A stretch of 36,838 bases of DNA from a virus: positions 1 to 36,838 of the IMG/VR virus record IMGVR_UViG_3300000101_000055. One strand, given 5' to 3'. The position numbers and the translations under genes are program-made. Below are positions 1,741 to 36,298 of the stretch, piece after piece. The notes under the pieces were generated by a model that saw only the letters and a program-made list of their open reading frames with translations, ran no database searches and was not told where the DNA came from. Positions within the stretch are counted from its first letter, which is position 1. Each line of letters begins with the position of its first letter.

Positions 1741-2103
1741 TTATGTTCTATTATGATCGTCTTCTAATCTTACAATGTCGTCTTCACCAAAGTAAGTCCC
1801 TGTTTGTACTTCTATAAATTGTACTATTTCATCTGTTTCATTCCATGCTCTATGTTTAGCACCTAATGGTATTTTAATTGATTCACCTGGTTCTCTAAAT
1901 ACTTTTTCATTATCTAAAATAATAGTTAAATTACCTCTTATTACAGTCCATTGTTCTTGGCGTTTATAGTGATATTGATAAGATAATCTTTTTCCAGGAG
2001 CAACTGTTATCCGTTTAACTTTACATTCATTTGAATTAAGTAATACTTCATACATACCCCAAGGACGACTTTCTACATTATCTTTTATATATTCAAATTC
2101 CAT
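1741..2103 (-). CDS. Mannose-6-phosphate isomerase-type cupin (ManC C-terminal domain-like)
   Basis: The 120-aa protein is a single cupin domain of the type II phosphomannose isomerase group, found as the C-terminal domain of bifunctional ManC/AlgA. Visible family features are SRPWGMYEV at the start, then PGKRLSYQYHYKRQEQWTVIRG carrying the metal-binding His/Gln/Glu positions, then PLGAKHRAWNE with the late cupin His, and the typical ending GEDDIVRLEDDHNR. Such domains interconvert fructose-6-phosphate and mannose-6-phosphate. The gene sits between the two polymerase halves: its ATG overlaps the TAA of the upstream half by one base. With the phosphomannomutase-like and nucleotidyltransferase genes just downstream it may feed a mannose-derived nucleotide sugar. 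That linkage is inferred. Confidence 0.85.
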   Translation of the reverse strand: MEFEYIKDNVESRPWGMYEVLLNSNECKVKRITVAPGKRLSYQYHYKRQEQWTVIRGNLTIILDNEKVFREPGESIKIPLGAKHRAWNETDEIVQFIEVQTGTYFGEDDIVRLEDDHNRT

Positions 2104-3818
2104 TATACTTCTAACTTTAATTCATTCTTCATAACTTTATTCATATGACGATTAGCAACTAAGGCTGATTCTTGAATTATGCGCCATCCTGATAATGTAA
2201 TGGCTTCACTTAATATAGACAAAGGCATTCCATATCTAAATGAATTTAGTGCTGTAGCTCCATATAAGGAATTAAGTAAAATTTTCATTGTATATTGTAG
2301 TAAATGGTTTTTAGCACCACCTTCATTATTGCCTGCTTTATAACATTTTTTCATTTCATTTTTATATATAACTCTTTCATTAAACCATTTATTTAAAACA
2401 GTAGATAATACAGATTCTTTATCTGTTTTAAAAAAGGTACCATTTGCAGCAACTGACCAATTATTCTTTTCTATTAAGTCAATTAATTGACCAATACTTA
2501 CTCTACGGGTATTATCACTATTTCTATTAGGATCTAATATTACTACTTCTTCCTCAGGATTTTTTTCTTTTAAATCATTTAATCCTAATCTATTATTACG
2601 ATCATCAGGATCTACTATTTTACCTACAATAGTTTCCCTACCAATATTTAAGGTCATTATAATTGAGGGATATAATGAAGTTAAATCTTCATCAAACATA
2701 TATTTATAAAGACCTGCTTTAGGACAAAATAAATAACCTCCAGCATAATTTAATTTTTTTTCCCCTTTAGGTCTTCCAGGGGGTATAATTTTTTGAGAAA
2801 GTAAATATGATGAAATAGCACCATCATGAATTTTTGAAGAAGCATATACCTCACTATAACGAACTTTACCTTTATGTGCTAAATTTTTAGTTAAAGCAAG
2901 ATATTGGAGTTTTTTATCTAATTCAACTAATATTTCAACATCAACAAAGTTATATTGAATGAATTTATGTATATTTTCTTCAAATAGTTTATCAAGTGAA
3001 CCTTCGTATTCGATTTTATTAATTCCTACATATTTTTCACCAATAGAATCTAATTTCCAACTTGGCTCGTCTTCCCAACTATATTTTTTATGTAATCTCA
3101 TATAATCAAGTGATTCAACACCTGCTATATCTACAAATTGATCTCTTTTATACCAATATTTATTGTTTTTTTTATATTTTACAACTCCGATAGGAGATAA
3201 ACGTTTAGCATCTTTTTCACCTAAAACAATACACATTCTATGAAATAGATAAGGAATATCAAAGTAATCACTATTATAACCTACTAAAATATCTGGTTCT
3301 ATCTCTTCCATTTTATTTAAAAATGTATCTAATAGATCAGCCTCATATCTTAATGGTATAATTTCTTTATTTTTAGTTTTTGTACGTTTTAATATACCTT
3401 TTTTATCTAAAATAACAATAGACCACCAATCTGCTTGTTTATCATACCAAGCAATAGAAGTAATAGGTTTAGGAGCATTAGAAATGTATTCTTCAGTTAA
3501 TGCTCCTCCCATTTCACATTCTATATCAAAAAATACTTCTCTATGAGAAGTAGATGGTTCATCATTAATACCATATTCTTCTATAAGAAATTTTTGGTGA
3601 GCTGAGATATCAGCAAAGTGTAAACCATGAGTGTTTCTGTCCCAATTATGAGTACGTATTAAATGTTCTCCCTTTAATCCTTTATATTTAGCATCTTCTT
3701 CTCGACACTCTCTATAAGCATAATTGTTCCAATTAATCTGTCTATAACCATCATCATCCCACAAGTGTATAAGGTGTTTATTTTCACCTTTACCTTGTTC
3801 GTAGATCTTTTTATACAT
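2103..3818 (-). CDS. Family B DNA polymerase, N-terminal part (3'-5' exonuclease, motifs A and B)
   Basis: This 571-aa protein holds the exonuclease and the first half of the polymerase domain of a T4 gp43-like replicative polymerase. Exo I is FFDIE (96-100), Exo II YNSDYFD (181-187), Exo III YNFVD (289-293), so proofreading residues are intact. Motif A is DLTSLYPSII (378-387), almost the same as T4; motif B is KILLNSLYGA (512-521). The protein stops about 50 residues after motif B, before motif C, which lies in a separate gene at 555-1478. The TAA overlaps the ATG of the cupin gene. The upstream sequence AAATAAGTTATG has no Shine-Dalgarno but fits other starts here. A reading error is an unlikely cause of the break, because two whole genes separate the halves. 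Confidence 0.93.
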   Translation of the reverse strand: MYKKIYEQGKGENKHLIHLWDDDGYRQINWNNYAYRECREEDAKYKGLKGEHLIRTHNWDRNTHGLHFADISAHQKFLIEEYGINDEPSTSHREVFFDIECEMGGALTEEYISNAPKPITSIAWYDKQADWWSIVILDKKGILKRTKTKNKEIIPLRYEADLLDTFLNKMEEIEPDILVGYNSDYFDIPYLFHRMCIVLGEKDAKRLSPIGVVKYKKNNKYWYKRDQFVDIAGVESLDYMRLHKKYSWEDEPSWKLDSIGEKYVGINKIEYEGSLDKLFEENIHKFIQYNFVDVEILVELDKKLQYLALTKNLAHKGKVRYSEVYASSKIHDGAISSYLLSQKIIPPGRPKGEKKLNYAGGYLFCPKAGLYKYMFDEDLTSLYPSIIMTLNIGRETIVGKIVDPDDRNNRLGLNDLKEKNPEEEVVILDPNRNSDNTRRVSIGQLIDLIEKNNWSVAANGTFFKTDKESVLSTVLNKWFNERVIYKNEMKKCYKAGNNEGGAKNHLLQYTMKILLNSLYGATALNSFRYGMPLSILSEAITLSGWRIIQESALVANRHMNKVMKNELKLEV

Positions 3819-7111: not shown

Positions 7112-7135
7112 AATATAACTTAATATAATAACCTT

Positions 7136-7279
7136 TTATTTAACTTCAAAGTCTTTGATGTATTCTTCTAAAATATCTACTAATACTAATACATCATCAG
7201 GATCCATTGTAACTGCACAACAAGTATTTATATTCTCTTTTATTGTACTTAAAACCTCTAATGCTGCTTCTTTAGTCAT
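7136..7279 (-). CDS. Small acidic 47-aa protein, unknown
   Basis: A short reading frame fills the space between folE and the small gene after queE. It starts with ATG at 7279 inside the sequence AATGACTAA, so its start overlaps the stop of the 53-aa gene upstream, and it ends with TAA at 7136. The product has the composition of one or two helices, with MTKEAALEVLSTIKENIN at the start, a CCAV stretch, and an acidic run DPDDVLVLVDILEEYI. It has no recognisable family. The tight overlap, the complete use of the gap and ordinary codon choice for this genome support it as real. Confidence 0.6.
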   Translation of the reverse strand: MTKEAALEVLSTIKENINTCCAVTMDPDDVLVLVDILEEYIKDFEVK

Positions 7280-7433
7280 TCCAATTTCTGATAATATTCC
7301 ATACTATAAAAATATTACATATTACTGCTTGTAATACTATTAAAGTTCTTATAAAAGCAATTTTATCTGCTTCTTTTGTGGTTCCAACTTTTTCACCTAA
7401 GGCTTTAGCCCATACCCTCCAAAATGTTTTCAT
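7272..7433 (-). CDS. Small 53-aa membrane protein
   Basis: The ATG at 7433 lies in TAATG, sharing one base with the queE stop, and the frame runs to TAA at 7272. The product begins MKTFWRVWAKALGEKVGTTK and ends in a hydrophobic stretch from about residue 25 to 48 (IRTLIVLQAVICNIFIVWNII), which should be one membrane helix. I have the impression that similar small Trp-rich proteins occur in marine T4-like phages, without a known role. It is coupled to queE upstream and to the 47-aa gene downstream (8-base overlap), so it probably belongs to the same message as the 7-deazaguanine genes. Confidence 0.7.
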   Translation of the reverse strand: MKTFWRVWAKALGEKVGTTKEADKIAFIRTLIVLQAVICNIFIVWNIIRNWND

Positions 7434-8206
7434 TACACTTCACGTTCTGTATCAAAAGCCATAATGTGAGCACGTCCTGTAAACCTCCATCCTTTATCTC
7501 TTACAAAATCCATAACTACAGGATAACTTTCCATTAATGAAATACGATCATCCCCCGCGGGCATTGCCCATACTTTTTCATTAGGGATTTCTAATTCATT
7601 TAAAAAATCTTCAACTTCTCCAACCATTGAAAGCTCTTTGTCAAGGACAGGCTTAATATGGTAGTCATGGTGATAATCAATACTTTTTTTAATTGCATCT
7701 TTATTTAATCTGAGTTTGTTGTGGCGTGTGACCATTTTTTCATCCGTAATTGCACCTTGAGGTGTCTTAACTCCCAATACAGGAATACTATTGGAAAACT
7801 TAGGACTAATACTAAGAAGATTAATGGGATAGTCAGTAGCAAGAAAATGGCTTCCTTCAGTTTCAATAGTAACAAATATATTTCTTTCATTAGCGAGATG
7901 TGTTAATTCATTTACAAGGGCGGGGTGCATAGTTGGTGACCCTCCTGTTAACATCATTTCTGTAATGTGAGGGTTTTCATCATACATTTTAATTATATCA
8001 TTAAATGCATATTTTCCTTTTTCAGGATGAATAGAAGTATACCAAGAATCACACCATCCACCTTCGCCAAAATAGCATCGATGTGTGCATCCAGATGTAC
8101 GTACAACAATGGTAGGATAACCTTGACGACTTCCTTCACTTTGTACTGCGGTATATACTTCGACAATTGGGAGAACTTTAGAATAGTCCTCAACTCTTTT
8201 TAACAT
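7433..8206 (-). CDS. queE: 7-carboxy-7-deazaguanine synthase (radical SAM)
   Basis: This 257-aa protein is a radical SAM enzyme of the QueE family, which converts carboxytetrahydropterin to 7-carboxy-7-deazaguanine. The start VYTAVQSEGSRQGYPTIVV is typical, as is MMLTGGSPTMHP (GGxP, which contacts SAM). The cluster-binding cysteines are C40, C44 and C52: C-x3-C-x7-C rather than the common C-x3-C-x2-C. QueE proteins are known to vary in this loop, so activity is still likely. The ATG at 8206 follows an A-rich leader with two small hairpins. The stop overlaps a 53-aa membrane-protein gene. It works between QueD and QueC in preQ0 synthesis. Confidence 0.9.
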   Translation of the reverse strand: MLKRVEDYSKVLPIVEVYTAVQSEGSRQGYPTIVVRTSGCTHRCYFGEGGWCDSWYTSIHPEKGKYAFNDIIKMYDENPHITEMMLTGGSPTMHPALVNELTHLANERNIFVTIETEGSHFLATDYPINLLSISPKFSNSIPVLGVKTPQGAITDEKMVTRHNKLRLNKDAIKKSIDYHHDYHIKPVLDKELSMVGEVEDFLNELEIPNEKVWAMPAGDDRISLMESYPVVMDFVRDKGWRFTGRAHIMAFDTEREV

Positions 8207-8276
8207 ATGTTAATTTTTTTAAGTGGTTTTACAGTCACTTGACCATTTATATTGGTCCCAATATAATAAAACTATT
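8207..8276 (-). promoter_or_regulatory. Tandem hairpins in the queE leader
   Basis: The 70 bases between the S74 fibre gene and queE contain two small inverted repeats: GACCA (8241-8245) with TGGTC (8253-8257), 7-base loop, and AAGTG (8221-8225) with CACTT (8236-8240), 10-base loop. In the gene direction they are followed by an A-run, not a T-run, so they do not look like an intrinsic terminator. The sequence does not match a preQ1 riboswitch. It may be a leader structure or a weak transcription end for the fibre gene. Confidence 0.3.
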
Positions 8277-9617
8277 TTAGGTATCCAAACTATCTAATCG
8301 AGTTTTTAAATCTATTATTTCTTTTTGTTGATCTTGAACAGCTTTAATTAATAAAGATGTTAATTTAGAATATTTTATACCATCCGCTCCTCCATTTTCA
8401 TCAATATGTACTAATTCAGGGATGTGTTTTTCTACTTCTTCTGCAATTAATCCTATATCTTTAAACCCAGTATCTTTCCAATCAAATGTAACAGGACGTA
8501 ATTTATATAAATTAGCTACTGAATCTAAACTAGATACATTTTGCTTATATCTTAAAGCTGAGGTTTCTGTTATGCTAGTAGCAAAGAAAGTACCTGTAAC
8601 TGCTAAAGAACCTGTTATATCAGCTGATCCGCTAAATGGAAATCCTGAAGCAGCACCACCACCTGCGTTTAATGCAAATGAAGCAGTTTCAGCAAATGAA
8701 GATGAAATAACACCTACAATTTGAGCTCCACTACCTGTAAAAGATCCTGTATAAGAACCAGTCATTGATCCTGATAGGAAAGAATAAAAACTACTTGAAA
8801 ATGAACCTGTAAATGGACCATCACCACTTGCTGCAAATGAACCAGAGGTAATAATATTAACAGAAGAACTTTCAGCATATGATGCTGTAACAGCAAAAGA
8901 GGCTGAGGTAATTGTACCTAGTACTACAGAAGCTGTATCTGCAGATGTTGCATTCCCTTCTAAAGCACCTATAAATTTAGTTGCTGTTAATGTATTAGTA
9001 GAAGGAACATAATTAAGCCCTATATCTGTATTAGCTCTATGACTTCCAGATGTACCTTGAGCAAATAAAATATAATTTGTACTAGCATCACTATCATCAG
9101 GATTTACAAATACATTTGTTGCTAATGTTGCTTCCGAGGCAGATACTGCATAACTAGAAGATATAGCATGACTTGCTGTAACCGCATGTGATGAAGTTAT
9201 TGTTCCTGTTAATCCAGAACCATCACCTTGATATGACCCACTAAATGAACCACTGATATAAGGACTATTTAAAGAACCCGTTATGGTTACACTACCTGTA
9301 AATTGATGAGTATCATCTAAGGAATCTCCAAACTTAGTAGAACCACTTGCAAATATAATAGAAGAAGATTCATACGTAGTTACTAAATAAGTAATAGAAG
9401 CAGTACCATCTATAATTAAATTTCCAGACATACTAACAGAACCCGTAAAAGCGGTTGTCCCACTTACAAATAATGATCCTGTGAGCGCAGTTGAACCTGA
9501 TAAATCTAGTGAAGCAGTTAAACGAGTATATCCTAATCCATTTTGAATTCTCTCATTTTCTATATGTAATAACTGATCATAGGTAGACTTGATCGTCCTA
9601 TTAGTGAATGTAGACAT
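8277..9617 (-). CDS. Tail fibre/spike protein with C-terminal S74 chaperone-peptidase domain
   Basis: The 446-aa protein is built of short Gly/Ser/Thr-rich beta repeats (ITGSL, VSGTTAFTGS, GDGSGLTG) through about residue 345, as in trimeric fibres. It ends with an intramolecular chaperone of the peptidase S74 type: ETSALRYKQNV carries the Ser and Lys expected for self-cleavage, then PVTFDWK, DIGLIAEEVEKHIPEL and a terminal coiled coil (KAVQDQQKEIIDLK). Such domains trimerise the fibre and then cut themselves off. It is likely a receptor-binding virion protein, although it sits amid the 7-deazaguanine genes. It has its own upstream late-type box (9641-9648) and a terminator just before that, so it can be expressed separately. 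A paralogue lies at 35297-35977. Confidence 0.88.
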   Translation of the reverse strand: MSTFTNRTIKSTYDQLLHIENERIQNGLGYTRLTASLDLSGSTALTGSLFVSGTTAFTGSVSMSGNLIIDGTASITYLVTTYESSSIIFASGSTKFGDSLDDTHQFTGSVTITGSLNSPYISGSFSGSYQGDGSGLTGTITSSHAVTASHAISSSYAVSASEATLATNVFVNPDDSDASTNYILFAQGTSGSHRANTDIGLNYVPSTNTLTATKFIGALEGNATSADTASVVLGTITSASFAVTASYAESSSVNIITSGSFAASGDGPFTGSFSSSFYSFLSGSMTGSYTGSFTGSGAQIVGVISSSFAETASFALNAGGGAASGFPFSGSADITGSLAVTGTFFATSITETSALRYKQNVSSLDSVANLYKLRPVTFDWKDTGFKDIGLIAEEVEKHIPELVHIDENGGADGIKYSKLTSLLIKAVQDQQKEIIDLKTRLDSLDT

Positions 9618-9640
9618 TTACAGCTGTTTTTTGTACTATG

Positions 9641-9648
9641 ATAAATAT
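9641..9648 (-). promoter_or_regulatory. Putative late promoter box (ATATTTAT) of the S74 fibre gene
   Basis: Read on the minus strand this is TTATATATTTATCATAG, ending 23 bases before the fibre ATG at 9617. It shares ATATTTAT with eight other sites upstream of mostly virion genes in this window. Its occurrence here, isolated among metabolic genes but in front of a virion gene, is good support for a late-class role. Confidence 0.6.
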
Positions 9649-9654
9649 ATAAAG

Positions 9655-9674
9655 GAGACCGCTTAAGCGGCCCC
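9655..9674 (-). terminator. Intrinsic terminator after queC
   Basis: On the minus strand GGGCCGC-TTAA-GCGGTCT forms a stem of about 8 base pairs (two G-U pairs) around the perfect palindrome CCGCTTAAGCGG. A C then TTT follow. It lies 26 bases after the queC stop and immediately before the fibre promoter box, so it separates the 7-deazaguanine message from the late fibre message. Confidence 0.7.
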
Positions 9675-9699
9675 ATTTTTTAAAAATTTAATTTATTTA

Positions 9700-10509
9700 T
9701 TAAGCATCACCCAATACTGCAGTATGATTTGCTAAAAGTTCCTTTACATATGTTTCCGCAATATCATATTTAACTTCTCCACTTTCATCCTCATATTGTA
9801 CGGGATCTTTACGACCCAAATTAATAAACGCTTCAATTCTTTCAACAGATGAAGCACTTTTGTAATCAGAGTTACCTGATGGGTAGGGTTTGTATGAGGT
9901 ATTTGTTCTTTTGTATACTTCATCAAAATCCAATTCCAATTGTTTAATGAGTTCTTGTCCATCTTTTAATATTCCAAGTTTATCTGTGTCTAAATATGGG
10001 GTAAAATAGCCAACACGATCAGCTTCCCAATTTCCAATTCTAAATGCGGCATCATCGGCATCTCTAAATTCTTGTCTACAATCAGGATAAATAGCATGAT
10101 CTCCAGCGTGAATGCCTAAAGCAATATCTGTTTTTTCTTCAGTATCATTTGCTATAGATAATGCTACAGCTTGAACAATAGAAGCAAATATTTTATTCCT
10201 ATTAGGTACAACTGTTTCTTTCATATTATCTTGTTCATAATGACCTTCAGGAACATCCTCACCTCCATCTACTAAAGCTGAGCTTAATAATTGTGATAAT
10301 CCATCAAGTTTAACTACTTGATATGTAATATAATGCCCATTTTCTTTTAAATAGTCTACTAATTCTTGGGCTTTATCTAATTCTACTTTATGTTTTTGAC
10401 CATAATCAAAAGATAAAGCAGTTACTGTATTATACTCAGTTAATGTTCTAAGTAATAATGTTGAGGAATCCATTCCTCCACTTAAGGATACTACGACGTT
10501 TTTTGCCAT
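9700..10509 (-). CDS. queC: 7-cyano-7-deazaguanine (preQ0) synthase, zinc-cysteine-less form
   Basis: The 269-aa protein is QueC, which turns 7-carboxy-7-deazaguanine into preQ0 with ATP and ammonia. The PP-loop SLSGGMDSS (8-16) binds ATP, and VPNRNKIF, GIHAGDHAIYPDCRQEF and DTDKLGI are conserved family segments. Usual QueC carries four zinc-binding cysteines near the C-terminus, in the TxSCY and CGxCxxC region. Here the same place reads TNTSYKPYP then NSDYKSASSVERIEAF: the cysteines are replaced (candidates Ser205, Ser214, Lys217, Ser220), and only one Cys (144) remains in the protein. The rest is intact, so a zinc-free but active enzyme is more likely than a dead one. The leader is A-rich (AAATAAATAAAAATG). 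Confidence 0.92.
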   Translation of the reverse strand: MAKNVVVSLSGGMDSSTLLLRTLTEYNTVTALSFDYGQKHKVELDKAQELVDYLKENGHYITYQVVKLDGLSQLLSSALVDGGEDVPEGHYEQDNMKETVVPNRNKIFASIVQAVALSIANDTEEKTDIALGIHAGDHAIYPDCRQEFRDADDAAFRIGNWEADRVGYFTPYLDTDKLGILKDGQELIKQLELDFDEVYKRTNTSYKPYPSGNSDYKSASSVERIEAFINLGRKDPVQYEDESGEVKYDIAETYVKELLANHTAVLGDA

Positions 10510-10511
10510 TT

Positions 10512-10697
10512 TTATTTATTTTTCTTTTGCCAGGTATTACTAAGCGTATAGGCAAACGCTTTAAATTTACATTTTATATAAGAAATAATATACGAAAAGA
10601 TTGTTGATATCCCAAATCCTCCTATTAAAAGGGTCCAAATATTTGGGTGAAAATGTTCTCCACAAAAACCAAAAATATGTTTAATTATTTCTGTCAT
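10512..10697 (-). CDS. Small 61-aa membrane protein
   Basis: The product has one clear hydrophobic segment (WTLLIGGFGISTIFSYIISY, about residues 21-40) after a short N-terminal part with His and Cys, and a basic C-terminus (FKAFAYTLSNTWQKKNK). It has no known motif. The start overlaps the end of the DpdA-like gene by 17 bases and the stop is 2 bases before queC, so it is part of the 7-deazaguanine operon. A holin-like or envelope role cannot be judged from the sequence. Confidence 0.7.
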   Translation of the reverse strand: MTEIIKHIFGFCGEHFHPNIWTLLIGGFGISTIFSYIISYIKCKFKAFAYTLSNTWQKKNK

Positions 10698-11484
10698 AAT
10701 TTTTTAATCCATTTATTTTACGAAATTGTTTTACATTTGTTAATACTAAATTATAATTTAATGCATTATGATTTATATCAAAATAAGTATTCATATTAGG
10801 AGATGGTTTTTTATTTAAACCAAAACTTTTATATTTAATACCTTCTAAAGCTGACATAATGGGGTTTGATGTGTCAATCGATTCTATTTGTGGATGGTTA
10901 TCATACCAACCAAATTCCTGTGGAATTGAACAACCTAATAAATGGAGTTTAATATCATTAAAATTATTTAATTTTAGTAAACCATTTACAAATCTTACTC
11001 TACCTAATGATTTTCCCATATCTACATTAGTATGAGGAAAAAAACTATTATACCAAGTTGCACCATATGAAACACATAATTTTTTATAACCTAAATTTAT
11101 TAATAAATTAGCACATAAATAAGCTTCATTTTTATCTTCACCTTGAATTACCGCTACTAATTTTGTTTTTTCTGGGTATTCAAATTGTTTCCAATATTTA
11201 GCCTGTGCAGCTGTTTGACTACATTTCATCCAAACATCAGGTACAATAAATTCATCGGGTTCTAATTCATCAATCCAATATCTTAAACGTCTATGATCAT
11301 ATGCTTCACCTAATTCGTGAAGCGAATTATCCATTATAATATAACGTCCTTGTTTTTTAGATTCATAAAAGAAGTTTTTATATTGTTCATCCTTATCTAA
11401 TAGATGAGGGAGGCAATAATCATAATCATTCCATTCACGACTATTATTTAATAAACAACGGGGAACTTCATGACTAACCTTCAT
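10681..11484 (-). CDS. DpdA-like DNA 7-deazaguanine transglycosylase (TGT superfamily)
   Basis: The 267-aa protein resembles the shorter phage DpdA group of the tRNA-guanine transglycosylase superfamily. YIIMDNSLHELGE sits where TGTs have their first catalytic Asp, followed by DEFIVPDV, KLVAVIQGE, HLLGCSIPQEFGW and IESIDTSNPI, where the last Asp may be the nucleophile. Such enzymes exchange guanine in DNA for a 7-deazaguanine such as preQ0. The surrounding queD, queC, queE and folE genes fit this well. ATG at 11484 was chosen: it overlaps the queD stop by 11 bases, and the only upstream alternative (11493) is a GTG. No tRNA-TGT zinc motif is visible. The final modified base is unknown. Confidence 0.8.
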   Translation of the reverse strand: MKVSHEVPRCLLNNSREWNDYDYCLPHLLDKDEQYKNFFYESKKQGRYIIMDNSLHELGEAYDHRRLRYWIDELEPDEFIVPDVWMKCSQTAAQAKYWKQFEYPEKTKLVAVIQGEDKNEAYLCANLLINLGYKKLCVSYGATWYNSFFPHTNVDMGKSLGRVRFVNGLLKLNNFNDIKLHLLGCSIPQEFGWYDNHPQIESIDTSNPIMSALEGIKYKSFGLNKKPSPNMNTYFDINHNALNYNLVLTNVKQFRKINGLKNYDRNN

Positions 11485-11938
11485 ATATAGCACTATTTTT
11501 ACTGTGTTCCATAAATTCTACCCTTACTACTTTAACTCTGTTTTTAGTTTCAGCTTTAACAAAGGTATTTAATTTATTAAAAACATATTCAGCAAATTTT
11601 TCTGCTCCAACTGCTGGGACTACTCTTACTTGTGCTACTTCATGTACACCCATTGATTGAAACGATTCTACAAATGGATCATCTTCTGCTACTATAACAG
11701 TATGATCAAACATATAATCCATCCACTCTTTAGGGGATTTACCATCAATTTGAGTTTCAGCACGTTTCATACCTCCAAAATCCCAAACCCAGTTTTTTTC
11801 ATCTAATTCACCTTCAAACCATACTTTAAATGATATCCCATAACCATGAAGATATTTACAGTGTGTTTCTTCTGCTTTAAATTGACGAAATACAGTTGAG
11901 AACCCGTCAAATATTTTTGTTGATTGAAATTTACCCAT
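11474..11938 (-). CDS. queD: 6-carboxy-5,6,7,8-tetrahydropterin synthase, variant metal site
   Basis: This 154-aa protein is QueD, the second enzyme of preQ0 synthesis. ETHCKYLHGYGISFKVWF holds the catalytic Cys27 and His31, and MFDHTVIV (His of the catalytic triad), VGAEKFAEYV and EHSKNSAIYEG complete the family pattern. Standard QueD binds zinc with three His (one in FSAAH, two in HGH). Here the first is Phe17 (FSTVFRQ) and the third is Tyr33 (HGY), with an extra His26 before the catalytic Cys. I recall a marine subfamily with the same THCKxLHGY pattern, so it is probably functional with a rearranged site. The start overlaps the thioredoxin stop region by 8 bases and the end overlaps the DpdA-like gene. 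Confidence 0.9.
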   Translation of the reverse strand: MGKFQSTKIFDGFSTVFRQFKAEETHCKYLHGYGISFKVWFEGELDEKNWVWDFGGMKRAETQIDGKSPKEWMDYMFDHTVIVAEDDPFVESFQSMGVHEVAQVRVVPAVGAEKFAEYVFNKLNTFVKAETKNRVKVVRVEFMEHSKNSAIYEG

Positions 11939-16370: not shown

Positions 16371-17738
16371 TTAAGCACTATTGGTAGAGTTTTGAAAAAA
16401 TTTACTTAAAGTTCCTTTATCTCTTTCAGAATAATCATTTGCAAAAGCCTGTTTAGGTGCAGCTGGGGATTCATCAATTTCTCTGATAGTATCCTCAATT
16501 TCTATGTGGCCCGTTGAGACATCAACAGTAGCATAATAAGTCATTCCATCCATACCATATCTATTTTTCATTAAGAAAAATCTACCAGTACCATTAATTT
16601 TATCTTGAGGTAATCTTGATAAAGACATACAGAAATCTGTAATCATAATTTTATTATATGAACCTGCTGCTTTATCTCCTTCAATTACATCATCTTTTGC
16701 ACCTGCTCTATTAACTTGAGAAACAGACCATATAGGTACATTTAAAGTTCGAGCTAATGCTTTGGTAGAAACATAGGTATTATCTAATTTTTCTTTTTCA
16801 TCTTTAACATTTGAATTGCTTTTTAATAAATCAACATAATCAATAATAATTAAATCTGGAGGATATCCTAAATCGGTCATTTTTTGTATATGCCCCTCAA
16901 GTGTAGAAATAGAAGCATTACCAGGAGCATATTCTTTAATAGTTAAAGTTCCTTTTAATCCATCTATATACTTTTCTACTTTTTCTTTTTGTAAATGTAT
17001 TGTGTTTACTGGGTGATTAAGGAAATAAGAATCATAACGTTTACCAATATATCCCTCAGATAATTCTAAAGTATAATGTACTACATTTAATCCTAATTTT
17101 ACGGCATGTGCTCCTAAAGCAACCATAGTCCAAGATTTACCTCCACCAGGTGAACCAAATATTAAACCGAAATCACCTCCACCTAAACCACCCATTAGTT
17201 TTTCATTAATAACAGGCCATGGTGTAGGTATTACTTGTCTATCTTCTTCAGTATAACGTGCTTCAACATCTTTAATATATTCATGTCCTATATTTTTATC
17301 TTGTCCTGCTTTTAAAGCATTATCAATAGTAAATCTAATATCATCAAACATCCCATCCTGTAGTAAATCTACAGATTTTAATAAAGCTGATTTTAATGAT
17401 TGGTTTTTACAAAAATTAGAAAATTCCTGTTCAACATACTCTTGATCTTCATTTATTAATTTATAAACTTCTTTTAATTGATCAACAATAGCAGTTTGTA
17501 AAACATCATTATCTATCTTTTTAACTTCTATTTTTAAAAAATCTAAAGTAGGTGATAAATGATATTCATCAAAATATTGTAGTGTTTCTTTTACAATCCA
17601 TTGGTGAGCTTGATTTTCAAAAAACGAAGGTAAAATTACGTCCCTTATATTTAATGTAAACTTTTTATTTTTAAGTAAAGAATTTAACACCTTAACTTGA
17701 AAATGGGGGCCGTATTGTGATAAACTCTTTAACGTCAT
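16371..17738 (-). CDS. Replicative DNA helicase (DnaB/T4 gp41 family)
   Basis: This 455-aa protein is a hexameric RecA-fold helicase of the DnaB family. The N-terminal helical part (to about residue 170) is followed by FGSPGGGKSWTMVALG, the Walker A loop, then VVHYTLELSEGYIGKRYDSY (H1a-like Glu), LIIIDYVDLL (Walker B), and WSVSQVNRAGAK (H3-like Gln). An arginine-rich segment, FFLMKNRYGMDG, follows. In T4 the equivalent gp41 unwinds DNA on the lagging strand with the gp61 primase; no primase is visible in this window. The gene starts 3 bases after the flap nuclease gene ends. The leader is AAATAAGTTATG. Confidence 0.93.
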   Translation of the reverse strand: MTLKSLSQYGPHFQVKVLNSLLKNKKFTLNIRDVILPSFFENQAHQWIVKETLQYFDEYHLSPTLDFLKIEVKKIDNDVLQTAIVDQLKEVYKLINEDQEYVEQEFSNFCKNQSLKSALLKSVDLLQDGMFDDIRFTIDNALKAGQDKNIGHEYIKDVEARYTEEDRQVIPTPWPVINEKLMGGLGGGDFGLIFGSPGGGKSWTMVALGAHAVKLGLNVVHYTLELSEGYIGKRYDSYFLNHPVNTIHLQKEKVEKYIDGLKGTLTIKEYAPGNASISTLEGHIQKMTDLGYPPDLIIIDYVDLLKSNSNVKDEKEKLDNTYVSTKALARTLNVPIWSVSQVNRAGAKDDVIEGDKAAGSYNKIMITDFCMSLSRLPQDKINGTGRFFLMKNRYGMDGMTYYATVDVSTGHIEIEDTIREIDESPAAPKQAFANDYSERDKGTLSKFFQNSTNSA

Positions 17739-17741
17739 AAC

Positions 17742-18773
17742 TTATTTAATCTTATATTTGTGAAGATACGAAAATACTTCTGATAACCAAAATTCTGTAT
17801 TAGGTATTCCTCTTCCTAATAGATCCTTTTCATACATCCCTAAAAATTTAGCTTTGTTAAAATTATAAGGAGAGGTTTCTATTAAGGTATCTAATTCCTG
17901 TTGGTCTTTATTTAATAATACAATGTCTTCTAATGACATTAATTCATAATTAATTTCCAATTGACTTTTAAATAAATGAATATTACCATAAAGTCCATGT
18001 TCTTCAACTTTCTCAGTAGACTTATCATAAGCTTCCTTTAAAGTAAATTTTTCTTTACCTCCTAATTCGGGAAATAATTTGAATAATTTTTTAGGACCTA
18101 AACCTTTAACACCAGGTAAATTATCAGACTTATCTCCCATTAAACATTTCATCGTAATAAAATTCTTAGGATATAAACCATATTGATCATAAATGTCTTG
18201 AGGTCTATAAAATTTCTTTTTAATTGGAGAATATACTGTAATTCTTTTATTTACTAATTGTAAAAAATCTTGATCTGCAGAATAAATAATAACATCATCT
18301 TTTAATTTTTGAGATAGATATGCTATAGTATCATCAGCTTCTATTTTATCTATAATAGAAATATTTACTGGTAGTGTTTTTAAATAATCTAATAATCTCA
18401 TCATTTGAGTTGAAACAGAATCTGATTCTTCTTCTAAAGATGAAAAAACATTAAAATTTGTTATTCTTTTTATTTGTCTATTAGCTTTATACTCTGAATA
18501 AGTGTTTCTTCTATTAGTAATATTACCCTGGCCATCAAATACTAAAACTACCCTAGTAGGTTTGATTAATTTTATAGCATAGCCTAAAGATTTCATAAAC
18601 CCCACTAAACCACCAATATGATTACCTTGAGGATTAATTGCTGGGATAACAGCAAATGACCTTAAAAAAGTATTCATAGAATCAATTAAGAGCACCCTAC
18701 TATTTAAATGTAGGGGCTCTAAATCGGATCCCTCGTGCAAGTTATCGAGTATCGCTTGATGTGATTTATTCAT
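17742..18773 (-). CDS. 5'-3' exonuclease / flap nuclease (T4 RNase H-like)
   Basis: The 343-aa protein belongs to the FEN/PIN 5' nuclease family. RVLLIDSMNTFLR has the first metal-binding Asp, VVLVFDGQGN the second, YKANR the arch region, IEADDTIAYL and IYSADQDFLQLV the acidic cluster, and LMGDKSDNLPGVKGLGPKK the helix-hairpin-helix. All expected acidic residues are present, so it should be active in removing RNA primers and flaps. The ATG at 18773 was chosen; it overlaps the uvsX end by 8 bases. A longer frame to 18821 would add a hydrophobic 16-residue lead inside uvsX and is less likely. It belongs to the replication operon with uvsX and the helicase. Confidence 0.92.
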   Translation of the reverse strand: MNKSHQAILDNLHEGSDLEPLHLNSRVLLIDSMNTFLRSFAVIPAINPQGNHIGGLVGFMKSLGYAIKLIKPTRVVLVFDGQGNITNRRNTYSEYKANRQIKRITNFNVFSSLEEESDSVSTQMMRLLDYLKTLPVNISIIDKIEADDTIAYLSQKLKDDVIIYSADQDFLQLVNKRITVYSPIKKKFYRPQDIYDQYGLYPKNFITMKCLMGDKSDNLPGVKGLGPKKLFKLFPELGGKEKFTLKEAYDKSTEKVEEHGLYGNIHLFKSQLEINYELMSLEDIVLLNKDQQELDTLIETSPYNFNKAKFLGMYEKDLLGRGIPNTEFWLSEVFSYLHKYKIK

Positions 18774-19842
18774 CTGTAGGAGTAGGATTATGAAAATCTT
18801 CTGCTTCAGATCCTTCAACAACTACTTCAAATGGACCATCTCCTAAAATTTTACCCCACTCATGTTGATGAGCTTTTTTATATTTTTCTATATCACTTTT
18901 CTTTTCAGAAATAAAACCATGAGGAGTAGCTAAAATCTTACCAGTTGTTGTAATACCATTAATGTGGTTTTTTTCAATAGCAACTTTAACTTTTTTAGCC
19001 CACTCTACTTTCTTACCATCTTTAACTGCATTTATTTTTAATGAACCTGAATTGGAAATGTTTCCAAAGGTAACAATTAAAGTAGAATCAAAGAACATTG
19101 TATTCCCACCTTTATTTTTCATAATAGGAGGTGACATAGGTCCTATTGGTTTTTCAACCCATATTTTATTAACAGCAACAAAGGAATTTGTGTAAGGATA
19201 TGATTCTTTTCTTGATAATAGTATTTCTTGATTAATAAAATTACCAAATTGAGTAGACATTGCACCTGCATTCCATTCATTATTGTTTTTTGCCTTCTCT
19301 ACAGACATTTGACACGGCACAGATCCAATTGAATCCCATAGAAACACCATATCCATCGGTAAATTACCTTTTTTCTGTTCATTCATTAGATCTGCCATGA
19401 ATCCTGCAACAGCTTCTACAGTTGGTAATTGGCCTCTATCTGCAAAGATAAAATTACCATCTATTCCAGAAACTTTACCATCACTATCTTTTTCTACATT
19501 TACCTCTAGCCCCATCATTTGAGCATGTTCCCAAGACCATTTCATCTCGGTAACAATAAAAACAGGTAAAATACCCATTTTTTGGGCATTAACTGCTACC
19601 TCTAACAAAGCAGTAGTTTTTCCTGTATCAGAATGACCACGTAGCAGAGTAATATGACCGTGAGGAATTCCAGGTAATGAAACCATATCTTGCCATGCTG
19701 GTGATAATGGTATCCATTCTTGTTCCTTAAAGGTATTATTTGTTGATCCTAACCCTTTAGCTGCTTTAAAATTATTAAGGGAGAATGTCCCCTTAACAGA
19801 CTTAGAGATATCACCTCCAAGGCTTGCTTTTTTCTTACCCAT
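18766..19842 (-). CDS. uvsX: UvsX-like recombinase (RecA family)
   Basis: The 358-aa protein is a RecA-fold strand-exchange protein of the T4 UvsX type. GHITLLRGHSDTGKTTALLE carries Walker A (GHSDTGKTT), FIVTEMKWSWEHAQMMG the ATP-sensing Glu, MVFLWDSIGSVP the Walker B strand, and SFVAVNKIWVEKP a loop equivalent to the Gln/Asn sensor region. UvsX drives recombination-dependent replication and repair. It starts 5 bases after the ssDNA-binding protein gene ends and overlaps the nuclease gene, so gp32-, UvsX-, nuclease- and helicase-like proteins come from one message in a T4-like functional set. A UvsY homologue is not recognised here. Confidence 0.92.
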   Translation of the reverse strand: MGKKKASLGGDISKSVKGTFSLNNFKAAKGLGSTNNTFKEQEWIPLSPAWQDMVSLPGIPHGHITLLRGHSDTGKTTALLEVAVNAQKMGILPVFIVTEMKWSWEHAQMMGLEVNVEKDSDGKVSGIDGNFIFADRGQLPTVEAVAGFMADLMNEQKKGNLPMDMVFLWDSIGSVPCQMSVEKAKNNNEWNAGAMSTQFGNFINQEILLSRKESYPYTNSFVAVNKIWVEKPIGPMSPPIMKNKGGNTMFFDSTLIVTFGNISNSGSLKINAVKDGKKVEWAKKVKVAIEKNHINGITTTGKILATPHGFISEKKSDIEKYKKAHQHEWGKILGDGPFEVVVEGSEAEDFHNPTPTDE

Positions 19843-19847
19843 ATAAA

Positions 19848-20633
19848 TTAATCTTTAAATAAATCGTCGAATTCGCTTTCGCTAAATCCCTTTTTTTCTT
19901 TAACGTTTAAGGTGTAACCTTCGTCTTTTTTAGGTGGTGCGTTAACAGCAACTTTTGTATCATCTGCCCCATCTTCTGGATTTAACCAATCTTGGAGGGC
20001 TGTTTTCATTTCATCATAAGTGTATTTCTTATAATATTTGAATAATTCTGGTTGCTCTTTTAACCATGTTTCAACTGAAGTATTATCATCTGATAATGGT
20101 GTTTGTTTTGGTTTTACACGTAACGAAGTTTGTGGATAAGGATTACCTTGAACTACTTCTACTGTCATATCTAAACCAGACATTACATCAGTAAAATCAC
20201 CGTAATCTTCATCTGCAGCATAACTCAATAGTTCTTGGTATACTTGCTTTCCAAATTCCCAAAAACGTACGCCTCTATTTTCTTCACCACGAACAATAAT
20301 AGGAGCAAATACTCTCATTTTAGGTTCTAACTTTTTAGCTAGCCTCCAATTTTCGGGTTCAGATGTTTTACGTAATTCTTTTGAAAATTCTACAATTGGA
20401 TCCTTATCACCAAAATTAATTGGGGAGATCATTGTTCGATTACCTATTCCATAATGAAAAAATACTTCCTGAAACGGGTTATCTTTGTTTTCAGCATAAG
20501 GTACAAATCGAATTTGTGATTTACCTTGTGGTGCTTTCCAAAAATATTGACTTCTGTCAAACTTTTGTTGGGATTGTTGCCCTTGTGGGGCTTGAAGTTT
20601 TTCTAACTTGCCTGATAATAAATTTAAGTCCAT
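19848..20633 (-). CDS. Single-stranded DNA-binding protein (T4 gp32-like)
   Basis: The 261-aa protein fits the gp32 family: an N-terminal basic segment (GKLEKLQAPQGQQSQQKFDRS), the OB-fold start YFWKAPQGKSQIRFVPYAE, a middle VFAPIIVRGEENRGVRFWEFGKQVY, and an acidic, flexible C-terminus ending FSESEFDDLFKD that should bind other replication proteins. The Cys/His zinc ribbon of T4 gp32 is absent, as in marine relatives. Position directly before uvsX supports the call. The start uses the AACAGTTATG context without a Shine-Dalgarno. It is expected to coat single strands during replication and recombination. Confidence 0.9.
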   Translation of the reverse strand: MDLNLLSGKLEKLQAPQGQQSQQKFDRSQYFWKAPQGKSQIRFVPYAENKDNPFQEVFFHYGIGNRTMISPINFGDKDPIVEFSKELRKTSEPENWRLAKKLEPKMRVFAPIIVRGEENRGVRFWEFGKQVYQELLSYAADEDYGDFTDVMSGLDMTVEVVQGNPYPQTSLRVKPKQTPLSDDNTSVETWLKEQPELFKYYKKYTYDEMKTALQDWLNPEDGADDTKVAVNAPPKKDEGYTLNVKEKKGFSESEFDDLFKD

Positions 20634-20705
20634 AACTGTTTTATTGTTTTAAATGTAACTGTTGGTAATATAATAAAAAAAGGGGTGGTAACCAAGTAAT
20701 TTTGG

Positions 20706-21125
20706 CTAAAAGGTAATAATATTGTATACCTTTGTATCTAGTCGTTTCAATTCTCCTCCAGTAGTTAACAAAATACAATTTCTGTAATCTTGCCAATTTA
20801 CTTTAAAACTAGTATCTAAAACACCTTCATTTAATTCTTTAATTAAATCATTAAGGGCGTTTATTGTGTATAGAGTGTTTGAATCTTTTTTTCTATGGAG
20901 AAGAATAGTATTATCTAATATAGTATTAGACATATTAAAGGAATCCACATTATAAGTACAAACATACTCATTTGTTGATTCTACAAAAAGAACAAATATC
21001 TTATTAAATAAGATTGTGTATTGTTCCCTTATGGTTTCTAATGTGGAATCTAATTCTTCCTTAGTTGTAAAAGTGCAAAATAGTTTATTTGCCAAATCGT
21101 CTAAATTAATTTCGTAATCTACCAT
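20706..21125 (-). CDS. Unknown 139-aa protein downstream of the PolA-like gene
   Basis: I cannot assign this protein. It has a helical, acidic first third (YEINLDDLANKLFCTF and following), a middle with many Ser/Thr/Asn, then LYTINALNDLIKELNEG, and a basic/aromatic C-terminus (VNWQDYRNCILLTTGGELK). I have the impression that the TINALN and W-x-x-YRN-x-x-LL patterns recur in small phage proteins of unknown function. It starts 5 bases after the PolA-like gene and ends 72 bases before the ssDNA-binding protein gene, so a part in replication is plausible only by position. Confidence 0.75.
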   Translation of the reverse strand: MVDYEINLDDLANKLFCTFTTKEELDSTLETIREQYTILFNKIFVLFVESTNEYVCTYNVDSFNMSNTILDNTILLHRKKDSNTLYTINALNDLIKELNEGVLDTSFKVNWQDYRNCILLTTGGELKRLDTKVYNIITF

Positions 21126-21130
21126 AAATA

Positions 21131-22435
21131 TTAAATATTTTTTAAGGAATTATAGTTATGGCCATAACCAGCTTTAATAACATAACCCTCTGATTCTAGT
21201 AATTGTTTTATTTTTTGTAATGTGTGTTTACCATCACTGATAGAATAGTCTATAAGAAACGAATCGTACGTGTATAATATAACTTTACTTTGTCGCTCCT
21301 CCAAATATTCTATAACTTTTTTTACAGAAATTACATTATTATATGTTTCTGCTGATTGGATAATATAATTTAGTATTTTATTTGGTGTTGGGTTTAATAT
21401 TTGTTCTTTAGCTAACACCTTACCTCCTATTAACTCTAGTTTATTTTCTGCATTAAATTTTTCCCATAATTTATTTACATATTCTGTCATTAATTTAAAA
21501 AATGGGATTTCTTTATATTGATCAAACACACCTCCATATAATTGTTTGAAAGTTTGTTCTTTAGATTGCTTATATTCGGCATCAGTTAAAGTATCTTTGC
21601 CAAAATACATTTTTCCTAATTGAGTATGTACAGAATCTTTATCTAGTTCATAATTAATTAATTTTGCTAGAATTCTTACATGATAAGAATCATAATCAAA
21701 TTCAAAAAACAAATCATTTTTAGGAATAAACGCAGTTCTTGAACCATCATTTTTATTTAAAGCAGCAAAGTTAACGCCGTTAAATGAGTTTGTGGGGCGA
21801 GTGGTGAGGTTGTATAGGTTGTATTTAGTATACACGGTTTCACCGTTTAAAAACCATGATTTTTCATTGTATTTAAAGTGTTTATGAAAATAATCCGGAT
21901 GAATTTTTATTCCTTGTTCTTCAATCGCTTTGAAAACTTTAGGTAAAGTTTCATTATAAAATATATTTGGATTTTGTAAAAAGGACGACTTAATATCTTC
22001 ATAAGTTTTTTCTTCTGTTTCATAATGCTTCGATATGGGAACAAGAGAGTTAGTAAACTCCAAATGAGAGAAGTAAGAATACATCCTATCACGAAACTTA
22101 GTATAATGTTGAAAATCAGAATCTCCATCATAAGAAATGTCAACTAATTTATTATTATCAAAATAATACAAAACTTCTTTCTTATTTAAGGTATAAATTC
22201 GATCATATTTAGAATCTATCCACTTCATTACTTTATCAAAAGGTAACTTAAATGCCTCACTGTGGTTAATAGGAAACATATATCCCTTACTATTTTCAGT
22301 TTTAAAATAAACTAAACAGGGAGATGACAAAACAGAATGATATTCATCATTCATGGGTATTATCTTAATATAACATTTATTACCAGAACAGTGTAAGTTT
22401 TTTAGTTGCTGTTCCGTCTCAACAATATAATACAT
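21131..22435 (-). CDS. Compact, divergent family A DNA polymerase-like protein
   Basis: The 434-aa protein carries the ordered palm/finger motifs of DNA polymerase I. TTRPTNSFNGVNFAALN (211-227) stands for the TGRLSSxxPNLQNIP segment. Motif A is DYDSYHVRILAKL, with Asp247 at the catalytic place and His252 where Glu is usual. Motif B has Lys292, Phe296, Tyr300 and Gly301 with exact spacing (K-x3-F-x3-YG). The O/Q helix segment is IIQSAETYNN, and motif C is YTYDSFLI with Asp391 but Ser392 instead of Glu. The first 100 residues resemble a worn 3'-5' exonuclease fold without its acidic residues. At 434 aa it is far shorter than Klenow. The two metal-binding aspartates remain, so it may polymerise, with altered steric gate and metal site. 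It is unusual beside a family B enzyme. Confidence 0.8.
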   Translation of the reverse strand: MYYIVETEQQLKNLHCSGNKCYIKIIPMNDEYHSVLSSPCLVYFKTENSKGYMFPINHSEAFKLPFDKVMKWIDSKYDRIYTLNKKEVLYYFDNNKLVDISYDGDSDFQHYTKFRDRMYSYFSHLEFTNSLVPISKHYETEEKTYEDIKSSFLQNPNIFYNETLPKVFKAIEEQGIKIHPDYFHKHFKYNEKSWFLNGETVYTKYNLYNLTTRPTNSFNGVNFAALNKNDGSRTAFIPKNDLFFEFDYDSYHVRILAKLINYELDKDSVHTQLGKMYFGKDTLTDAEYKQSKEQTFKQLYGGVFDQYKEIPFFKLMTEYVNKLWEKFNAENKLELIGGKVLAKEQILNPTPNKILNYIIQSAETYNNVISVKKVIEYLEERQSKVILYTYDSFLIDYSISDGKHTLQKIKQLLESEGYVIKAGYGHNYNSLKNI

Positions 22436-22455: not shown

Positions 22456-23415
22456 TTAATAACCTCCACCACCACCTCCTGAGGGTTGTCTTACTACAGG
22501 TGTAGTAGAGATGTTATTTTCTAATTGCGTTTGTAATGTACGACTGTTATTTGTAGGAACCACGCTATCTTGTGCTCCTACTTCTCCTAAAGCTTGTTGG
22601 ATTAAACCATTTATTGAATTTGTTACTAAATAATCAGATGCTAAAAGTATTATTCCTGTAGATTGTTTATGTGTAGCACCATCCATAATTTTTTTATCAG
22701 CCATAATATGATAATAACCAATATAATTACTATTATCTTTTCTATCTGTTAATTCGTCACCTCCAGTATATAATCCTTCTATTAATATTAATTCAGATTT
22801 AGCAGCGAATTGAATTAAATTAGATAAATATTGTTTAATACCCTTAAAAGTTTCTTCTGCTGTATTTACTAATCTTTGATTTGTATCAACAATTCCAGAT
22901 GTTTTAACACCGTTAGAATTTAATGAATCTTTTAATGGGCCTGAAATTTTCCAAAATACACGAGTTACAGTCCATAACGCATAGTTATACCTTCCCGCAT
23001 TTACATTTAAATCATTATAAGCTTCTTTAGATATTTCTATAATTTTAGGAGTAATATCATTTCTTTTTTTAGCAAAATATCTTATTATTTGACCTCTTTG
23101 GTAATCTTTGCCTGTAAGAATAGGAAACATAGGTAAAGGATCACCAGAGGATTGATATAATGCTTGGTTTGCTGGTTGAATACCTGAATAATTTAAATTT
23201 TCAGGTGTTTGGACTATATAATTATTAATAGGATTTGGATTGTAATTTTCTATTAATTTAACAGAATTAGGACTATTAGGAGTTTTTCCTGTAGATATAT
23301 TACCACTAAAAGTTTGATGATAATAACCAACATAAGCTTTACCAGACGTAGTAGTAAATTCACCACCCGAAGTGTATAAATTACTATTAACTAAAGATTT
23401 GGGTATGTATGACAT
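22456..23415 (-). CDS. Virion-module protein with duplicated YxGYYH motif
   Basis: This 319-aa protein is probably structural, because it ends the baseplate block and is nearly contiguous with it (1-base gap). Two copies of one motif are visible: LYTSGGEFTTTSGKAYVGYYH near the N-terminus and LYTGGDELTDRKDNSNYIGYYH near residue 216. The second continues KKIMDGATH, a pattern I associate with marine phage virion proteins of unknown role. Between them is a helical domain (TPKIIEISKEAYNDL and FKGIKQYLSNLIQ). The C-terminus is Gly-rich (PSGGGGGGY). A baseplate or tail-completion role is likely; the exact T4 counterpart is not clear. Confidence 0.8.
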   Translation of the reverse strand: MSYIPKSLVNSNLYTSGGEFTTTSGKAYVGYYHQTFSGNISTGKTPNSPNSVKLIENYNPNPINNYIVQTPENLNYSGIQPANQALYQSSGDPLPMFPILTGKDYQRGQIIRYFAKKRNDITPKIIEISKEAYNDLNVNAGRYNYALWTVTRVFWKISGPLKDSLNSNGVKTSGIVDTNQRLVNTAEETFKGIKQYLSNLIQFAAKSELILIEGLYTGGDELTDRKDNSNYIGYYHIMADKKIMDGATHKQSTGIILLASDYLVTNSINGLIQQALGEVGAQDSVVPTNNSRTLQTQLENNISTTPVVRQPSGGGGGGY

Positions 23416-35296: not shown

Positions 35297-35977
35297 TTAT
35301 TTTTTCTTTTCTAATTTATCTATACGAGCACTTAATTCCTGAACTGTTTTAATTAGTACAGAGGTTAATTTAGTATAACTTATACCTTCTGCTTGTCCGT
35401 CTATACCCATAGAAACTAATTCGGGGTAGATTTTTTGTACTTCCTCCGCTATTAACCCTATATCTCCTTTACTATTATTCTTCCATTCAAAATGAACAGG
35501 TCTTAGTTTATAAACATTAGTAGATTGTTTTTTTAGGGATTTAACAGATTTTTTATATCTTAATGCTGATGTTTCTGTTAATGAAGTTACAAAAGCAGAT
35601 CCAGTTACATTTAATGATCCTGTTATTTCTGCAGATCCTGAAAATGGAAAGGGTGCTGATGATATACCTGATAGGCCTGAACCATCACCTATAAATGAAC
35701 CGCTTACGGTACCACTAACAAATACACTACCTGTAAACGTTGAACTACCACTAACTCTAAATGCTAATGCTGTACTACCTGTAACAATTAAAGATCCGGA
35801 TACTGTAGCTGCTGATCCTGTAAAAGGGAACCCTGATACGCCAGTTAATCCTGACCCATCACCTGAATATGAACCACTAAAGTGACCACTTGCTGTTGTT
35901 ACTAGTAAAGTACTACCAGTGATATTTACTTTGGCTCCTGAATTTGGTGATATGCTACCTACTTTTAATATACTCAT
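35297..35977 (-). CDS. Short fibre protein with S74 chaperone-peptidase domain
   Basis: This 226-aa protein is a shorter paralogue of the fibre at 8277-9617. The N-terminal half has the same Gly/Ser/Thr units, with two GDGSGL elements (GSYSGDGSGLTGVSG and GSFIGDGSGLSGIS). The C-terminal half is an S74 domain: ETSALRYKKSV with the Ser/Lys pair, PVHFEWKN, DIGLIAEEVQKIYPEL, ISYTKLTSVLIK, and a coiled-coil end (LSARIDKLEKKK). It should trimerise and self-cleave. A late-type box ends only 4 bases before the ATG, so the message might be leaderless. It is possibly a short tail fibre, head fibre or decoration protein. Confidence 0.85.
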   Translation of the reverse strand: MSILKVGSISPNSGAKVNITGSTLLVTTASGHFSGSYSGDGSGLTGVSGFPFTGSAATVSGSLIVTGSTALAFRVSGSSTFTGSVFVSGTVSGSFIGDGSGLSGISSAPFPFSGSAEITGSLNVTGSAFVTSLTETSALRYKKSVKSLKKQSTNVYKLRPVHFEWKNNSKGDIGLIAEEVQKIYPELVSMGIDGQAEGISYTKLTSVLIKTVQELSARIDKLEKKK

Positions 35978-35981
35978 CGTT

Positions 35982-35990
35982 TATAAATAT
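35982..35990 (-). promoter_or_regulatory. Putative late promoter box next to the short S74 gene start
   Basis: Minus-strand AAAATATTTATAAACGATG: the box ends 4 bases before the ATG at 35977. If it is a -10 type element, transcription would begin at or inside the first codon, giving a leaderless message; otherwise this copy serves another purpose. Confidence 0.5.
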
Positions 35991-35992
35991 TT

Positions 35993-36298
35993 TTATTCTA
36001 AATCCTCTATTACTAAAATTGAACCCGCTCCTACTATTATTTCTGCATTAACAGTCAATGGACCGAACATTTTAGAATAATAAGCTATTGGGATTGTGAT
36101 ATTACTTGTGATATCTTGGAAATTACCAAAAAAGGATGGAGAGCCTGCTGAAATGCCTGTTAAAGATGAACCATCACCTGCGTATGAACCTGTAAAAGAT
36201 CCCGTCATAGCACCACTACTAATAGTAGCAGAACCTACTTCAAGAGAATTTAGAGTGGCATCAGAACCACTAACAATAAGTTTTTTCCAGTTAGGCAT
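35993..36298 (-). CDS. Small fibre-like protein (101 aa)
   Basis: The protein starts MPNWKKLIVSGSDATLNSLE, then has AMTGSFTGSYAGDGSSLTG, the same module as in both S74 fibre proteins, and a C-terminal beta stretch (TIPIAYYSKMFGPLTVNAE, IIVGAGSILVIED). It has no S74 domain. It may be the N-terminal attachment part of a fibre that once had or still shares modules with the gene downstream, or a small independent virion protein. It follows a 66-base leader after a late-type box. Confidence 0.75.
   Translation of the reverse strand: MPNWKKLIVSGSDATLNSLEVGSATISSGAMTGSFTGSYAGDGSSLTGISAGSPSFFGNFQDITSNITIPIAYYSKMFGPLTVNAEIIVGAGSILVIEDLE

Follow-up and report, generated by a model that had tools for sequence, protein, structure and literature searches.

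The window (the whole stretch of DNA analysed, i.e. 36,838 nucleotides of IMG/VR virus record IMGVR_UViG_3300000101_000055) carries on its minus strand, at positions 21131-22435, an open frame of 434 amino acids (P0001), here called divPolA1, which lies between a tail/baseplate module and a block of replication genes. The coordinates given in the initial annotation were correct, with the strand being left unsaid. The genes and elements relevant to its context are as follows.

22456..23415, minus strand: orf319, conserved upstream neighbour, end of the tail/baseplate module
21131..22435, minus strand: divPolA1 (P0001), 434 aa, thumb-less and predicted exonuclease-dead family A DNA polymerase
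20706..21125, minus strand: n139, conserved partner, 139 aa, 5 nt downstream of divPolA1, predicted alpha/beta fold
20667..20695, minus strand: promoter-like TTGG-N19-TATATT in the n139-gp32 gap (consensus match only)
19848..20633, minus strand: gp32-like ssDNA-binding protein
18766..19842, minus strand: UvsX-like recombinase
17742..18821, minus strand: FEN-type 5'-3' exonuclease
16371..17738, minus strand: DnaB/gp41-type helicase
2103..3818, minus strand: N-terminal half of the family B replicase, exonuclease and motifs A/B, 571 aa
555..1478, minus strand: C-terminal half of the family B replicase, motif C YVDTDS, 307 aa

The window also encodes a queuosine/7-deazaguanine gene set (6000-11938, minus strand; FolE, QueE, QueC and QueD-like), which includes a phosphoribosyltransferase-like ORF. 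Flavobacterium phage immuto has the same queuosine-pathway genes plus, by annotation, a DpdA-type transglycosylase; together with the T4-like structural genes, the deazaguanine set puts the contig close to immuto and to the Far-T4 phages (PMC4360716). At 8277-9617 and 35297-36298 (minus strand) are repetitive GSFxGSYxGDGSGLTG tail-fibre-like proteins, two of which have at their ends a chaperone-like segment, SALRYK...AEEV.

On the basis of sequence comparisons and a structural model, the 21131-22435 ORF is a real and strongly constrained gene for a divergent family A DNA polymerase. Changes between relatives are mostly synonymous (dS of 0.19, 0.62 and 0.90 versus dN of 0.028, 0.093 and 0.125), with dN/dS being ~0.14-0.15 for divPolA1 versus three relatives (L001, L002 and L009). 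P0001 alone matches Pfam DNA_pol_A at E=0.001, under the cut-off, and other searches with the single sequence (NCBIfam, PHROGs, PDB) gave nothing useful, only the profile being informative. The immuto homologue matches DNA_pol_A above the cut-off (E=4.6e-11), 41/83 relatives match it at E<=0.001, and a profile of the 83 relatives matches Klenow (E=5.8e-10), with all 50 of its PDB matches being Pol I or Pol theta entries. A DUF5614 match (E=0.0008, one member, below cut-off) was taken as chance. An AlphaFold2 model of P0001 built from the 83 alignment rows (mean pLDDT 95.8, pTM 0.92) has Klenow 1kfd as its best Foldseek match in the PDB (E=2.2e-18) and gives a VIA match to M. smegmatis Pol1 (Z 26.4, 401 residues, rmsd 3.6). 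Some 405 of its 434 residues superpose on the Bst large fragment, and this near-whole-chain superposition implies a Pol I palm in the predicted structure, which has the palm/finger fold. The proposal of a miniature, divergent PolA is thus borne out by profile, model and the invariant catalytic residues described below, neither of the outcomes named beforehand as refuting it (a model lacking the palm/finger fold, or a profile lacking PolA matches) having occurred.

The profile and model reveal a loss that the initial annotation omitted, along with the constant 139-residue partner and the split gp43. The profile aligns with the Klenow chain at residues 199-233 and again at 312-588, leaving most of the thumb, ~78 Klenow residues (Pol I ~557-634), with no counterpart in divPolA1; between H180-186 and the TxRP motif, the model contains only short elements. 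The N-terminal region aligns in the model from residue 1 with the exonuclease-like domain of Bst. It had been described as lacking acidic residues, which does not hold in general, conserved E/D60 and D99 being present, but appears to hold for the catalytic DEDD acids, none of which was found at the exonuclease motif positions when these were matched by eye from element order only.

All the residues named in the initial annotation lie at their assigned positions in P0001, i.e. TTRPTNSFNGVN at 211-222, Asp247, His252, Lys292, Phe296, Tyr300-Gly301, IIQSAE at 358-363, Asp391 and Ser392. Those most pertinent to catalysis map to the DNA as follows.

21797..21799, minus strand: Arg213 of the TxRP motif, Klenow Arg668 position, invariant
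21695..21697, minus strand: Asp247, motif A catalytic Asp, Klenow D705, invariant
21680..21682, minus strand: His252, steric-gate position, Klenow E710, invariant in the family
21560..21562, minus strand: Lys292 of motif B, Klenow K758, invariant
21347..21358, minus strand: Gln360 (Klenow Q849) and Glu363 (family-specific invariant)
21260..21265, minus strand: Asp391 (Klenow D882, invariant) and Ser392 (Klenow E883; Ser/Ala in the family)

Over 86 clusters below 80% identity, representing 203 near-full-length relatives, T211, R213, P214, N222, D247, H252, K292, G301, Y357, Q360, E363, Y390, D391 and D396 are invariant. The relatives were fetched by motif C and TxRP patterns, with motif A, motif B and residues 357-363 not being used; the motif C pattern is itself absent from 27/86 clusters and the TxRP pattern from 32/86. 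The same residues are kept in a second set (n=59) fetched solely via the neighbour n139, in which D247 and H252 are present in 58/58 sequences with a letter there; since this set was never selected by motif, its invariance is free of motif-retrieval bias. The profile alignment further equates F296 with F762, Y300 with Y766 and Y390 with H881 of Klenow.

The changes noticed at two family-typical positions are confirmed. The canonical Glu of the motif A steric gate is absent from divPolA1, the Klenow E710 position being occupied by the invariant His252; immuto's own full-length PolA keeps the Glu (DYTSLE). At the Klenow E883 position in motif C the family has Ser, as in Ser392, or Ala. In PolA enzymes the E710 position is the steric gate, a main barrier to rNTPs; substitution at this position in the Thermus phage Tt72 polymerase (E389A) leaves 35% activity, and that enzyme, in which Ser occupies the second motif C position, retains 76% activity as the S616A variant (PMC9324360). 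Ser or Ala at residue 392 thus need not inactivate divPolA1. In addition, Tyr288 replaces the triphosphate-binding Arg754. From the alignments, His252, Tyr357, Glu363 and Tyr390 are invariant signatures of divPolA1.

Sequence searches indicate that divPolA1 is present on hundreds of environmental contigs from a large group of T4-like phages, each of three alignment-based IMG/VR scans giving at least 580-587 confirmed matches among those listed; a 484-kb phage and a phage of Microcystis are among the carriers. One copy occurs in each of 16/16 long records, 10 of which also encode PolB, including every IMG/VR contig >100 kb, Mel-JY01 and LR756508; immuto has a full PolA in place of PolB. The six loci in bacterial genomes, all in MAGs and mostly of marine Flavobacteria, are probably phage contigs. 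A profile search of the Far-T4 relative Rhodothermus phage RM378 found no divPolA1. That the window encodes divPolA1 in addition to a family B replicase is supported, with the gp43 homologue being divided between motif B and motif C into two ORFs, which are separated by a cupin-like ORF and one of 86 aa. The gene is divided likewise in L316, a 158-kb relative, into ORFs of 556 and 310 aa with overlapping ends and no insert, and in LR756508.1 (260623-266900) PolB matches fall in two long frames (1022 and 625 aa) separated by ~5 kb, the gene there being either split or insert-bearing.

The gene does adjoin the gp32/UvsX block, as was proposed. The order across clusters is gp53-like, gp5-like, orf319, divPolA1, n139, gp32, UvsX, FEN and DnaB, with the n139-gp32-UvsX-FEN-DnaB portion being found in the window, immuto and most clusters. 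divPolA1 is present at 51/51 n139-found loci with enough upstream sequence, and, among 50,697 phage records, the 6 that contain divPolA1 are also the 6 that contain n139. Other genes intervene between divPolA1 and n139 in 38/78 clusters, i.e. in about half, so the two are linked but not always adjacent; the inserts, as in L137, L124, L161 and others, encode up to ~2100 aa. n139 is better conserved than divPolA1 (60% versus 37% to immuto), with invariant H77, K79, N83, Y86, N89, N92 and W111. It matches no Pfam family and its PHROG matches are scattered; the closest folds (best Foldseek E 0.099, best Z 6.6) are within noise and no family was assigned. A search for the T4 sliding clamp (PF02916) gave no match, with controls giving no match anywhere either.

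Comparison of relatives, by which alone the element is visible, reveals a recurring TTGG-N15..23-TATATT element in the n139-gp32 gap (20634-20705 in the window). TTGG/TATATT-like elements occur in 23/67 orf319-divPolA1 gaps (1.6 in shuffles), 23/45 n139-gp32 gaps (2.2 in shuffles) and 0/40 divPolA1-n139 gaps, with weak enrichment in the gp32-UvsX gap (4/59 versus 0.6 in shuffles), the patterns having been picked after viewing some of the same sequences and the shuffles preserving base composition only. This enrichment suggests that a separate transcription unit often begins with divPolA1, beside the tail module, under a promoter of the same type as that of gp32. In the window itself the gap upstream of divPolA1 is only 20 nt, with no visible element, and a sigma-70 promoter scan was at chance level.

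Taken with the model, the sequence data are best explained by an active, non-proofreading, distributive polymerase that carries out short synthesis beside the replicase, a reading which we consider probable. The catalytic pair D247/D391, the dNTP-helix residues K292/F296/Y300 and the primer contacts R213/Q360 are kept in sequence and model, and we infer an enzyme that would be active but distributive and unable to proofread. It would be recruited to ssDNA-coated 3' ends, perhaps via n139 and/or gp32, and would fill gaps behind the FEN nuclease, e.g. in Okazaki maturation and repair, or alternatively extend 3' ends at UvsX D-loops, with bulk replication being left to PolB, or to the full-length PolA in immuto. 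Bacterial Pol I carries a FEN-type nuclease domain in cis; in these phages the Pol I functions (5' nuclease and polymerase) would be spread over separate genes of one replication block. Repair, recombination and gap filling may each be served. As divPolA1 also adjoins the tail module via orf319, the replication link comes from one side of its neighbourhood. Replacement of the gate Glu by His, of Arg754 by Tyr288 and of His881 by Tyr could reflect either a different substrate or poor catalysis, and with no thumb the enzyme may need a partner to hold primer-template firmly enough for activity.

In a more elaborate, and rather unlikely, reading, divPolA1 and n139 would form a two-subunit polymerase, with n139 replacing the thumb or clamping DNA and with His252, Tyr357, Glu363 and Tyr390 altering sugar or primer-end choice, e.g. 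such that rNTPs or RNA 3' ends are tolerated. T7-type RNA polymerases arose from family A, and divPolA1 might, by a relaxed sugar choice, use rNTPs and serve in RNA or primer synthesis instead of being a DNA polymerase. The exchange of the Glu gate, a main rNTP barrier in PolA (PMC9324360), for an invariant His accords with this proposal, as does the RNA polymerase role raised by Yutin et al. for a separate family, divPolA2 (PMC11348598). We nevertheless regard it as unlikely: the gate-pocket residues Phe296 and Tyr300 are kept, His is not small and so may still exclude rNTPs, and a primer-making role is weakened by the separate DnaG-type primase encoded in immuto, Mel-JY01 and LR756508 and in G002, G003 and G008, several DnaG-like genes having been overlooked by the Pfam DNAG_N model alone.

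A translesion or modified-base polymerase matched to 7-deazaguanine phage DNA is very unlikely; QueC, QueD, QueE and FolE are encoded in both the window and immuto, and lesion bypass would be a fitting task for a polymerase with neither thumb nor active exonuclease, but we found no specific support for handling of 7-deazaguanine DNA by divPolA1. DpdA-type transglycosylases work on DNA after synthesis, and with the DpdA annotated in immuto acting in this way a special polymerase would not be required. That catalysis has been lost, leaving a structural or DNA-binding protein, is highly improbable because, despite the lost thumb, the predicted dead exonuclease and several changed active site positions, both metal-binding Asp residues, Lys292, Arg213 and Gln360 are invariant in the 86 clusters and in the n139-fetched set, a degree of conservation that a dead enzyme would not be expected to show.

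A widespread group of T4-like phages retains a second polymerase without the part thought to hold DNA, and with a sugar gate differing in kind from the usual family A gate. Definition of its role would show how DNA synthesis is divided between the polymerases of these phages and whether the thumb is dispensable to a family A enzyme, with the constant 139-aa neighbour n139 being the immediate candidate partner.

With respect to known systems, alignment identifies the gene as a new member of a published family rather than a novel kind of polymerase; the novelty of the second polymerase is unsupported because Yutin et al. (2024, Virol J 21:200) had described divPolA1 in immuto and relatives (PMC11348598), the only source of the name, with its preprint, in the literature searched. 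The published set comprises 14 named genomes, with immuto gp001 as type member; its traits are an additional PolA with conserved palm residues, a truncated thumb and an inactivated exonuclease, with replication genes conserved downstream and the regular DNAP elsewhere near GroEL/GroES (PMC11348598). Immuto gp001 (L015:1-1326) and the present ORF are syntenic (tblastn E=1e-79, 36.5% identity, 98% length) and align together with invariants in common. They share the conserved palm residues, the truncated thumb, the presence of a regular DNAP in addition and the downstream replication genes, and the present member has an exonuclease-like domain in which matching by eye located no DEDD acid; its replicase is a split family B enzyme, whereas that of immuto is a 777-aa PolA adjoining groES/groEL. 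The published text mentions neither a steric gate, histidine, ribonucleotides or gp32 nor the accompanying 139-aa protein, so that both the changed gate and the small gene that always travels with divPolA1 look like new observations.

Compared with Klenow, Bst and Taq, divPolA1 has the same fold, motif order, catalytic Asp pair and K758/F762/Y766/R668/Q849 equivalents at ~13% identity, but most of the thumb is missing, the fingers are shorter, and E710 is changed to His, E883 to Ser/Ala, R754 to Tyr and H881 to Tyr. Tt72 PolA likewise has Ser for the second motif C acid and is active (PMC9324360), but differs in having a full thumb, an active proofreading exonuclease and the Glu gate. The barbavirus PolA variant divPolA2 (PMC11348598) is also a second thumb-less PolA beside a PolB replicase, but has an unrelated N-terminal domain, which is absent here, and a variable neighbourhood, whereas divPolA1 has an exonuclease-like N-terminal domain, with the model aligning to Pol I from residue 1, and fixed neighbours.
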